A stretch of DNA of 63,740 nucleotides from Marinitenerispora sediminis (GTDB lineage Bacteria > Actinomycetota > Actinomycetes > Streptosporangiales > Streptosporangiaceae), in contig NZ_QEIO01000007.1 in NCBI RefSeq assembly GCF_003336425.1, positions 1 through 63,740 of the forward strand, written 5' to 3'. Positions 44,199 to 46,473 of this stretch are shown here, piece after piece. Below the pieces are notes generated by a model. The model had not been told where the DNA came from, did not search any database, and saw nothing but the letters and a program-made list of their open reading frames with translations. Each line of letters opens with the position of its first letter. The stretch's first letter is position 1. The translations under genes were made by a program, and so were the position numbers.

Positions 44199-44627
44199 TC
44201 AGGTGCGCGTCGTGGGAGGCGGGGCGCGGCCGAGCGGCAGCGTGCGGGCGCCGGCGGTCTCCGGCCCGGCGACCGCGCCCGCCGGCGGGACGTGCTCCCA
44301 CCGGCCCCGGCCGGGAAGCTCGGCGCGCCCGGGCAGGTAGCCGTCGGGAAGGTCGCGGGCGAGCGGCCGCTGGTCGCCGCCCCACTTGGCCAGCGCGAGC
44401 GAGACCGACGTGGAGTCCTGCGCCGGCCCCACCACGGCGTGCGGACCGAAGCCCACCATGGCCGTCCGGTGCTCGGACGGGGCGGTGGGCGCCGCGGGCG
44501 CGACGAGCTGGGCGACGGCGGCGAGCGGCAGCACCGGCGCGCTCACCGTGACCAGCACGGCCGTCAGCAGCGTGGCCAGGGCACGGAACACCGTGGCGGG
44601 CACCTTCCTCCGGCTTCTTCCGGGCAT
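44199..44627 (-). CDS. Putative secreted protein of unknown function
   Basis: 142 aa. A basic start (PGRSRRKVPA) and a hydrophobic segment (FRALATLLTAVLVTVSAPVLPLAAVAQ) make a signal peptide with cleavage near residue 35. The mature part is Pro/Ala-rich with HAVVGPAQDSTSVSLALAKWGGDQRP. No family recognised. It lies between secDF and metG on the secDF strand, ending about 90 bp before the secDF start. ATG chosen because it starts the signal; the frame upstream is GC-driven. Confidence 0.5.
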   Translation of the reverse strand: MPGRSRRKVPATVFRALATLLTAVLVTVSAPVLPLAAVAQLVAPAAPTAPSEHRTAMVGFGPHAVVGPAQDSTSVSLALAKWGGDQRPLARDLPDGYLPGRAELPGRGRWEHVPPAGAVAGPETAGARTLPLGRAPPPTTRT

Positions 44628-44801
44628 GACAGGGCGACGACGGACTCTGGCCCCATACCTTATCCGCACGAGTGGCCGAAACCGTGTCGGCGCCGACACG
44701 CGGCGGCGCGCTGACCTCGGGGGGAGGGCGCCACCGGGTCCCGCCGCGGGCCGCGGGACCGGCGGTTTCCCGCGGCGCGGGGGAGCGCTTCCCGCCGGAT
44801 G

Positions 44802-44807
44802 TAGCAT
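44802..44807 (+). promoter_or_regulatory. Candidate -10 box for the metG leader transcript
   Basis: TAGCAT fits TANNNT and lies seven bases before the ATG of the Met-rich leader ORF, the spacing expected for a leaderless start. No convincing -35 hexamer. Confidence 0.5.
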
Positions 44808-44814
44808 TACAGGC

Positions 44815-44886
44815 ATGCAGCGGGCACGCATGGCCATGATGGCGAGCCGGATGATGATGGTCTCCGGCCTCCCGCGCGTGCCCTGA
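44815..44886 (+). CDS. Met-rich leader peptide upstream of metG (candidate attenuator)
   Basis: 23 aa with Met at positions 1, 6, 8, 9, 13, 14 and 15 (start MQRARMAMMASRMMM), ending 69 bp before the metG ATG. There is no ribosome-binding site, but a TANNNT box seven bases upstream suggests a leaderless mRNA. After its stop, CCCACCG (44888-44894) can pair with CGGTGGG (44934-44940), GGAGGC (44900-44905) with GCCTCC (44915-44920), and TCCGC (44918-44922) with GCGGA (44941-44945) in the metG ribosome-binding site. The last two are mutually exclusive. Ribosome position on the Met codons could therefore set metG translation. This mechanism is inferred. Confidence 0.6.
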   Translation: MQRARMAMMASRMMMVSGLPRVP

Positions 44887-44955
44887 ACCCACCGCTCAAG
44901 GAGGCCCGGCCGGTGCCTCCGCGGATCGGGCGTCGGTGGGGCGGAAAGGTTGCCG

Positions 44956-46473
44956 ATGAGTCGTTACTTCGTCATGACCGCCATTCCCTATGTGAACGGC
45001 AGGCCGCACGTCGGGCACGCGCTCGAACTCCTCCAGGTCGACGTGCTCGCCCGGCATCGGCGGCAACGCGGCGACGAGGTACGCGCGCAGACCGGCACCG
45101 ACGACAACGCGCTGAAGAACGTGCAGAGCGCCGAGGCCGAGGGCGTCAGCCCGACCGAGTACGTCGCGCGGGTCGCCGAGCGGTTCCTCGGGCTGCAGCG
45201 GCCGCTCGACCTGCGCTTCGACGACTTCATCCGGACCAGCTCCGACCCGCGGCACCGCCCCGGGGTCGAGAAGCTCTGGAACGCGTGCGCCGCCAACGAC
45301 GACTTCTACCGCAAGAGCTACACCGGCCTGTACTGCTACGGCTGCGAGCAGTTCTACGCGGAGGACGAGCTGGTCGACGGCCTGTGCCCGGAGCACCTGG
45401 TCCGGCCGGACGTCGTCGAGGAGAACAACTGGTTCTTCCGGCTGAGCAGGTACCAGCAGCCGCTCATCGACCTGATCTCCTCCGACCGGCTGCGGATCGA
45501 ACCGGCCTCGCGCAAGCGCGAGGTGCTGTCCTTCATCGAGTCCGGGCTGGAGGACTTCAGCGTCTCCCGCAGCATGAAGCGGGCGCGGGGCTGGGGCATC
45601 CCGGTCCCCGGTGACCCCGAGCAGGTCATCTACGTCTGGTACGACGCCCTCGCCAACTACATCACCGCGCCCGGCTACGGCAGCGACGACGCCGGCTTCG
45701 CGCACTGGTGGACCGAGGGCGGCGAGCGGGTGCACGTCATCGGCAAGGGCATCATCCGGTTCCACGCGGTGTACTGGCCGGCCATGCTGCTCTCCGCGGG
45801 CCTCACGCTGCCGAGCACCATCTTCGTGCACGAGTACCTCACCGCCGACGGCCAGAAGATCAGCAAGTCGGCGGGCAACGCCAAGGACCCCGCCGAGATC
45901 GCCGAGCGGTTCGGCACCGACGCGCTGCGCTGGTGGATGCTGCGCGACGTCGCGCGGGCCGGCGACACCGACTACACCGACCAGCGGCTCGTCACCCGCA
46001 ACAACGAGGACCTCGCCAACAACATCGGCAACCTGGTCAACCGCACCGTCTCCATGGTGAACAAGTACCGCGGCGGCGCGGTCCCGCCGCTGCCGGAGCA
46101 CAACGACGCCGCCGCGGACCTGCGCGCGGCGCGCGCCGGCGCCGCTGCCCGGATCGACGAGGCCATGGCGGCGTTCGACTTCCGGCGGGCGGCCGAGGTC
46201 GTCACCGACCTCGGCGACGCCGGCAACCGCTACGTCGAGGCCGCCGCGCCGTGGACGCTGGCCAAGGCCGAGCGCAAGGAGGACGCCGCGCCCGACGCGC
46301 TGGACGCCGTCCTGGCCGAGCTCGTGCACACCTGCCGCCTGCTCGGGGAGCTGCTCACCCCGTTCCTGCCCGCCTCCGCGGCCGAGATCCTCGCGCAGAC
46401 CGGCGAGGGCGGCGACCGGGTCACCGCACCGTCGCCGATCTTCCGGCGCCTGGAGCTGGCCGCCGAGGAGTGA
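44956..46473 (+). CDS. metG: Methionyl-tRNA synthetase
   Basis: 505 aa. Class I signatures are HVGH (18-21, the HIGH motif) and KISKS (301-305, the KMSKS loop). RPHVGHALELLQVDVLARHRR, GTDDNALKN, CYGCEQFYAEDELVDGLCPEH (zinc-knuckle-like insertion) and GIPVPGDPEQVIYVWYDALANY are MetG blocks. It charges tRNA-Met and initiator tRNA. The ATG with GGCGGAAAGG upstream was chosen over a TTG two codons earlier. There is no C-terminal tRNA-binding extension, consistent with the short type. A Met-rich leader ORF lies upstream. Confidence 0.97.
   Translation: MSRYFVMTAIPYVNGRPHVGHALELLQVDVLARHRRQRGDEVRAQTGTDDNALKNVQSAEAEGVSPTEYVARVAERFLGLQRPLDLRFDDFIRTSSDPRHRPGVEKLWNACAANDDFYRKSYTGLYCYGCEQFYAEDELVDGLCPEHLVRPDVVEENNWFFRLSRYQQPLIDLISSDRLRIEPASRKREVLSFIESGLEDFSVSRSMKRARGWGIPVPGDPEQVIYVWYDALANYITAPGYGSDDAGFAHWWTEGGERVHVIGKGIIRFHAVYWPAMLLSAGLTLPSTIFVHEYLTADGQKISKSAGNAKDPAEIAERFGTDALRWWMLRDVARAGDTDYTDQRLVTRNNEDLANNIGNLVNRTVSMVNKYRGGAVPPLPEHNDAAADLRAARAGAAARIDEAMAAFDFRRAAEVVTDLGDAGNRYVEAAAPWTLAKAERKEDAAPDALDAVLAELVHTCRLLGELLTPFLPASAAEILAQTGEGGDRVTAPSPIFRRLELAAEE

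Follow-up and report, generated by a model that had tools for sequence, protein, structure and literature searches.

The metG gene of Marinitenerispora sediminis, which encodes a methionyl-tRNA synthetase (MetRS), is preceded by a short methionine-rich ORF and by RNA segments with competing pairings. Going by sequence comparison and modelled RNA folding, this leader is best explained as a widely conserved, Met-specific leader-peptide switch, a putative tRNA-Met-charging attenuator of one MetRS clade. We assign a probability of about 85% to a ribosome-mediated attenuator that would sense charged tRNA-Met and control metG; the figure refers to the sensing logic, whatever the output. The core of an earlier note on this DNA, a leaderless Met leader peptide attenuating metG, is supported by the comparison with relatives. 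The window, as the term is used here, is the whole stretch of DNA that was analysed, 63,740 nucleotides long.

The mini-ORF and metG in the window

The following features were located in the window:

44802..44807, + strand: TAGCAT, a -10-like box, 7 nt before the leader ATG at 44815; TAnnnT is kept in relatives
44815..44886, + strand: putative leader peptide ORF, MQRARMAMMASRMMMVSGLPRVP*, read from the sequence and kept in relatives
44830, 44836 and 44839, + strand: other leader Met codons
44846..44851, + strand: segment 1 (GCCGGA), 5' arm of the stem whose loop carries the Met codons
44851..44859, + strand: candidate regulatory codons AUG AUG AUG, codons 13-15, with Met at the same place in relatives
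44863..44872, + strand: segment 2 (TCCGGCCTCC), partner of segment 1 or of segment 3
44888-44894 and 44934-44940: CCCACCG and CGGTGGG, present in the window sequence
44900..44906, + strand: segment 3 (GGAGGCC), partner of segment 2 or of segment 4
44900-44905 and 44915-44920: GGAGGC and GCCTCC, present in the window sequence
44915..44920, + strand: segment 4 (GCCTCC), 3' arm of a terminator-like hairpin, with no U-tract after it
44940..44949, + strand: metG ribosome-binding region, GGCGGAAAGG
44956..46473, + strand: metG, methionyl-tRNA synthetase, the sole match over the TIGR00398 cut-off in the genome

The mini-ORF is a short leader ORF with clustered cognate codons, as seven of its 23 codons are Met and codons 13-15 read MMM. 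It ends 69 nt before the metG ATG (44956). Out of 439 window ORFs that are 8-50 codons long (longest ORF per stop, both strands), it alone has at least four Met within any 12-codon stretch when the start codon is not counted. A complementarity of TCCGC to GCGGA is also present. The earlier note had described TAGCAT, the 23-codon ORF with seven Met, the 69-bp gap and three possible pairings, and all of these were recovered in their places. It had also described the mini-ORF as devoid of a ribosome-binding site, and none was seen 5' of it in the window sequence. Folded as a single structure, the leader shows no unusual stability (z = -0.64), so that fold energy alone would have missed it.

The metG product is a MetRS of 505 aa with the Pfam domain tRNA-synt_1g. 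Divergent from the leader lies a 142-aa ORF (44202-44628, - strand) with a secretion-signal-like start, which had no Pfam match at E up to 0.001.

Conservation of the leader and its pairings

The DNA upstream of metG relatives was collected, giving 194 loci non-redundant on the upstream DNA. A leader was scored when adjacent Met codons occurred in an ORF that was 7-50 codons long and ended 20-250 nt upstream of metG. Such an ORF was found in 101 of the 141 non-redundant loci with a MetG at least 53% identical to that of the window (hereafter clade loci), compared with 36 of 2614 control windows taken from the 194 loci. The rule is blind to single-Met leaders, and because near-identical relatives remain in the set, its loci cannot be counted as independent events. 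Conservation in relatives, the comparative check proposed in the earlier note, holds for the ORF, for its Met codons and for a switchable RNA. Broken down by MetG identity, the adjacent-Met ORF was present in 24/34 loci at 62% or more, in 77/107 at 53-62%, in 3/22 at 46-53% and in 0/31 below 46%. An earlier pass had given 0/29 (L116-L144) and 0/23 (L161-L183, one sequence incomplete) for metG of 38-51% identity, and 12/16 for further clade loci (L145-L160). Forty clade loci are without adjacent Met. Judged by eye and not by program, 25 of them retain the hairpins, their Met codons being single or split, and the remaining 15 of the 141 clade loci are without the element altogether.

Two types of leader were aligned. 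Besides the window itself, the window type (alignment A1, n = 27) takes in Actinorugispora and three further genomes of the window's family, 13 loci from the Frankia family, seven from the Crossiella family and one MAG each of Pseudonocardiales and Acidimicrobiales. GCCGG-(Met codons)-CCGGC, GGCCTYY and GAGGCC...GCCTC are common to most of these leaders. Seven loci from the group of 34 with at least 62% identity are absent from A1: six are without the element (L085, L011, L012, L013, L234, L239), and one, L074, is of the second type and stands in A2. The second type (alignment A2, n = 54) was found in Streptomyces, Streptacidiphilus, Micromonospora, Actinomadura, Nonomuraea, Planomonospora and others. 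Its pattern is mostly ATGATG, then CCCCGC...GGGGC, then GAGGCCCC...GGGGCCTC. A2 holds 54 of 63 loci selected from 87 pattern-positive ones among 130, nine being left out by hand (L062, L261, L246, L215, L213, L044, L223, L250, L102).

Met clusters before hairpins were also found in a sister MetRS lineage (48-53% identical), namely in two Alphaproteobacteria (L065, L067), an Anaerolineae MAG (L056), a genome of the window's phylum (L117) and a Myxococcales MAG (L064). The clusters read MVM, MMM, MMSMVM and MAM in L065, L067, L056 and L117, and MPM in L064.

Among the loci without a leader, L011, L012, L013, L234 and L239 carry a Kutzneria-type metG of the clade. In L011, a TAGCCT box precedes the metG ATG by 7 nt, which would suit a leaderless metG. 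Locus L085, a metG relative of 69% identity without a leader, contains one in-frame TAA and is possibly a decaying copy or an assembly error.

Of the 81 aligned leaders, 79 have an in-frame start that TAnnnT precedes by 6-8 nt (26/27 window-type, 53/54 second-type); this spacing was found at 68 of 9404 arbitrary positions taken as background. It agrees with what is expected of leaderless actinobacterial leaders, a -10 box TAnnnT some 5-7 nt upstream of a start codon at which transcription also begins; in Streptomyces lividans, the -10 box TAnnnT lies at a mean of 6.3 nt from the start site (passages of PMC8079986). The presence of the box in 79/81 leaders argues that the leader is very probably leaderless, with transcription starting at or near the A of its ATG. 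Thirteen window-type starts were scored with a Shine-Dalgarno-like word; the TAGGAT box itself contains one.

Three mutually exclusive pairings surround the Met codons: 1:2 (GCCGGA:TCCGGC), which holds the Met codons in its loop, 2:3 (GGCCTCC:GGAGGCC) and 3:4 (GGAGGC:GCCTCC), 2:3 being without covariation. The Met-bearing loop between segments 1 and 2 varies in length. For 1:2 and 3:4 together, 85.2% of cells were paired in the window type (n = 27), and sliding by 1-3 columns lowered this share to 38-50%. One of 500 shuffles was as high, and no pair of the window-type 1:2 stem was changed on both sides. The 54 second-type leaders had 94.4% of cells paired (34-71% when slid), a percentage conditioned, like all pair percentages of A2, on a selection pattern that demands hairpin-like words. 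Here, 0/500 shuffles equalled the alignment in pairing, in cells changed on both sides or in covariation score, and 8/500 did so in pairs changed on both sides. For 2:3, 86.9% of cells were paired in the window type (slid, 39-74%) and 90.4% in the second type (slid, 33-72%). Covariation beyond shuffles was absent for 2:3, with cells paired as high in 457/500 (window-type) and 245/500 (second-type) shuffles; in the window type, complementarity is therefore kept without covariation. In segment 3 of A1, the row of the window itself is displaced by a column, and its pair counts are therefore too low. In L065 and L067, GGAAGCGG:CCGCTTCC is read as 2:3 and GCCGCTTC:GRGGCGGC as 3:4; the arms differ in sequence, and the topology is the same.

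From the three pairings of the earlier note, GGAGGC:GCCTCC stood as the conserved 3:4 pairing, and the other two did not. Pairing like CCCACCG:CGGTGGG (at least six Watson-Crick pairs) was found in 1/27 window-type leaders, the window itself, with 5% in shuffled sequences, and the stem was rejected as a conserved part. Pairing of segment 4 with the metG ribosome-binding site (RBS), as in TCCGC:GCGGA (at least five pairs), occurred in 7/27 window-type leaders and in 22% of shuffled sequences, which is at chance, and sequestration of the RBS by segment 4 was discarded as well. Since 2:3 would free segment 4 under starvation, such a cover of the RBS would act the wrong way round. Neither of the decisive pairings, 2:3 and the 1:2 stem that encloses the Met codons, was in the earlier note.

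Proposed switch and its output

In the proposed mechanism, RNA polymerase would begin at, or close to, the A of the leader ATG, and the leaderless 5' end would take up a ribosome that trails the polymerase. With ample Met-tRNA, the ribosome would pass the Met codons to the stop and cover segment 2, upon which 3:4 would pair and metG expression would be cut. With Met-tRNA short, it would stall at codons 13-15 and mask segment 1, upon which 2:3 would pair, 3:4 would be pre-empted and metG would be expressed. We infer that the mini-ORF is translated and that uncharged tRNA-Met is the signal. As a counterpoint, Met starvation should also lower the initiator Met-tRNA, which the leader itself needs. 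For the way in which 3:4 would cut expression, stopping transcription is our first choice, and this output is the least certain step because the U-tract is missing.

The effect of ribosome position on pairing was modelled with the ribosome edge assumed 12 nt from the A-site base, with a transcript ending before segment 4 and with segment regions in place of fixed columns. In this set-up, which was chosen after the first, full-equilibrium result, a ribosome on the first Met codon of the cluster gave at least three expected 2:3 pairs in 26/27 window-type and 54/54 second-type leaders. Shuffled GC-rich fragments reached this threshold in 25% (window-type) and 47% (second-type) of cases. With the ribosome at the stop codon, the threshold was reached in 0/27 and 0/54 because segment 2 is covered. 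With no ribosome it was reached in 12/27 and 8/54, and 1:2 averaged 4.1 and 4.8 pairs. The window leader had 8.1 expected 2:3 pairs in the Met stall; with segment 4 present, its expected 3:4 pairs numbered 7.4 for a ribosome at the stop codon and 3.0 for one stalled on Met. At equilibrium with segment 4 present, 3:4 often still wins in the Met stall (means of 5.7 pairs in the window type and 8.3 in the second type), so that 2:3 must act kinetically in most leaders. The first set-up, with full equilibrium and fixed columns, gave little switching in the Met stall (mean 2:3 probability 0.34 for the window type and 0.01 for the second type), and it misread the window, whose row is one column off in A1.

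The output was addressed by looking for T-runs and for stems at the metG start. A run of four T within 16 nt after the hairpin was found in none of the 27 window-type leaders and in 6/54 second-type leaders, so that an intrinsic terminator, that is, a 3:4 hairpin followed by a U-tract, is not seen in the window type. The window element would work like a trp-type attenuator, but we do not count it among the strict members of that family, since a U-tract was looked for and is absent. The same sensor may instead act through translation or Rho and not through intrinsic termination, a variant that does not exclude the sensing logic and that we consider possible at somewhat worse than even odds. It agrees with the lack of T-runs in 27/27 window-type and 48/54 second-type leaders, and in S. 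lividans leader peptides without U-tract hairpins precede thrS, trpS, metN and leuA (passages of PMC8079986). It also agrees with an extra stem of the second type, anchored at the metG start and with compensating variants, found in 36/50 leaders vs 42% of shuffled sequences, which may add translational control. However, the window type is without such an RBS stem (4/27 vs 33% shuffled), pairing of segment 4 with the RBS is at chance (7/27 vs 22%), and the sister-lineage leaders do have T-runs, which are clear after the hairpin in L065, L067, L056 and L117 and weaker, as a T-rich tail, in L064. Transcription attenuation is favoured as the ancestral output, and translation or Rho is a live rival for the window.

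In L019, L034, L068, L263, L265 and other second-type loci, the start stem lies in the last ~45 nt before metG. It is often CGGAGCC:GGTTCCG, with the variants GGAGCC:GGCTCC, GGAAGC:GCTTCC, GGTCCC:GGGACC and CGAACCC:GGGTTCG. A generic stem of at least six pairs near the metG start was found in 38/51 second-type leaders vs 55% of shuffled sequences, which is not clearly raised. An RBS stem was rejected as a conserved part of the window type, its 4/27 being below the shuffled rate.

Genome searches with models of both types bear on the specificity of the proposed tRNA-Met sensor. The window-type model (R2) was run against 200 genomes of the family. Its five matches with E no higher than 1.7e-6, one being in the window's genome, lie directly upstream of metG; all five are in R2's own alignment and thus match by construction. 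What carries information is that nothing else in these 200 genomes scored better than E 0.04, the level of two further weak matches. Run against 296 genomes of the class, the second-type model (R1) gave 48 matches with E no higher than 0.05. The six best were directly upstream of metG, four of them outside A2, and the other 42 had E of 0.001-0.05. R1 misses at least one known leader, that of G660, its match there not being at the metG of this genome; strict filters lose weak matches. If the leader were an arrest peptide or a general translation-stress sensor and not a Met-tRNA sensor, conserved C-termini would be in line with it, and SGLLRxS* and PRxRGC* are indeed conserved within each type. 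Nevertheless, these C-terminal residues are encoded by pairing segments and are unrelated between the types (SGLxR in the window type, PRxRGC in the second), Met being common to both, and the strong model matches (five of R2, the six best of R1) lie directly upstream of metG. We regard this reading as unlikely.

Slightly less credible still is an untranslated structured RNA (T-box-like, protein-binding or a riboswitch) with incidental AUG triplets. The well conserved pairing would suit it, but no Rfam match was found at E up to 1 in 44640-44990, T-box included. The Met codons are moreover in frame with an ORF whose start is 6-8 nt after TAnnnT, and the loop that bears them varies in length. 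At gathering scores, Rfam 15 found three tRNAs only in the window and no match in eight relatives. Least probable of all, the mini-ORF would only boost metG translation by reinitiation, without regulation, as has been proposed for leader genes close to structural genes (passages of PMC4833913), but the leader stop is 67-82 nt upstream of metG in the window-type loci inspected, with a stable hairpin between, and reinitiation would not call for Met codons.

Known leader systems and MetRS copies

In the trp-type attenuator of E. coli, the position of the ribosome drives the choice among 1:2, 2:3 and 3:4. The window element has the same logic, but it is without the U-tract and without a leader Shine-Dalgarno sequence, and its codons are for Met and not Trp. 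In Bacillus subtilis, thrZ is an on-demand spare synthetase under T-box control by tRNA charging. A T-box binds the tRNA directly, whereas in the window the translating ribosome would be the sensor. Canestrari (2020) reportedly described poly-Cys leaderless ORFs of mycobacteria that control cysteine genes, a control spoken of as translation attenuation. As far as that account goes, these ORFs are leaderless, as the window's leader very probably is, and both have a run of one residue and genes for that amino acid, Cys in one case and Met in the other.

In actinobacteria, trp-type attenuation of trp operons and classical attenuators or leader peptides for trp, trpS, leuS, ilvB and cys genes are described in passages of PMC1262725, which saw no conserved RNA structures upstream of methionine operons. 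Passages of PMC8079986 list leader peptides of S. lividans before leuS, leuA, trpE, trpS, alaS, ilvB, metNIQ and thrS, most of them called leaderless. Similar to the window, the Streptomyces synthetase attenuators (leuS, trpS, thrS, alaS) have a short ORF of cognate codons and competing hairpins before the synthetase gene (PMC8079986, and PMC1262725 for leuS and trpS), and those of leuS, trpS and thrS are described as leaderless (PMC8079986), as the window's leader very probably is. Within the passages covered, no metG leader is named among them, and here the sensed residue is Met, which is also needed for initiation. The metL leader upstream of metNIQ in S. lividans is likewise leaderless, with several Met codons and a Met-related operon; unlike the window's leader, it precedes a transporter operon, its Met codons are separated, its peptide is unrelated and its termination is called unclear (PMC8079986). 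In the parts covered of the literature on leader peptides for metG or Met, on attenuation, on a second MetRS and on leaderless leaders of mycobacteria, no metG leader was named; one could be in the 2010 Lopatovskaya survey. The words methionyl, metG and metS do not occur in the main text of PMC2965389. If the proposed attenuator is real, methionyl-tRNA synthetase joins the synthetases controlled by leader peptides, at more than 100 loci and with relatives in several phyla, through an element without a known Rfam family (window and eight relatives searched).

The genomes of 20 loci were scanned for MetRS at the TIGR00398 cut-off. Two Frankia genomes, Crossiella and the Pseudonocardiales MAG have a single match, in each case the leader-bearing copy. 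The other 16 genomes, 14 actinobacterial and two alphaproteobacterial, have two matches each. The clade metG is thus the second MetRS in 14 of the 18 actinobacterial genomes scanned besides the window's, and in the window's genome it is the only one. In the 16 two-MetRS genomes, an adjacent-Met ORF precedes 11/16 of the clade or sister-lineage copies and 0/16 of the other copies, whose starts were taken from profile matches and may be some codons off. Similarly, G178, a member of the window's family, possesses an adjacent-Met ORF before its 56% metG copy and not before its 40% copy.

In the MetG tree, made by a quick method and with no bootstrap, the leader label is clustered, with 23 changes vs a shuffle mean of 63. 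Here the MetG of the window falls together with those of Frankia and Crossiella, and many other members of its family are in the second-type clade, a placement that fits horizontal transfer.

Tentatively, and with less confidence than we place in the sensing logic, leader and MetRS may form a self-regulated, horizontally spreading cassette. In many hosts it might supply an on-demand spare MetRS when the resident enzyme fails, through starvation or a natural MetRS inhibitor, and it might have displaced the resident enzyme in the lineage of the window, in Frankia and in Crossiella. The element poses the puzzle of a Met sensor whose own initiation needs Met-tRNA. As Met is both the start and the sensed residue, a response would come only with initiator tRNA charged and elongator tRNA-Met not, and the switch might read the balance of the two pools. 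The proposed attenuator also predicts, for many actinomycetes, a second MetRS that would be turned on by a block of the first, a point of relevance to MetRS inhibitors.

The other MetRS copies of the 16 genomes (L318-L333) are of a sequence type clearly different from the clade copy, and 11/16 of them begin with (V)AWPYANGPRHIGH at the profile match.
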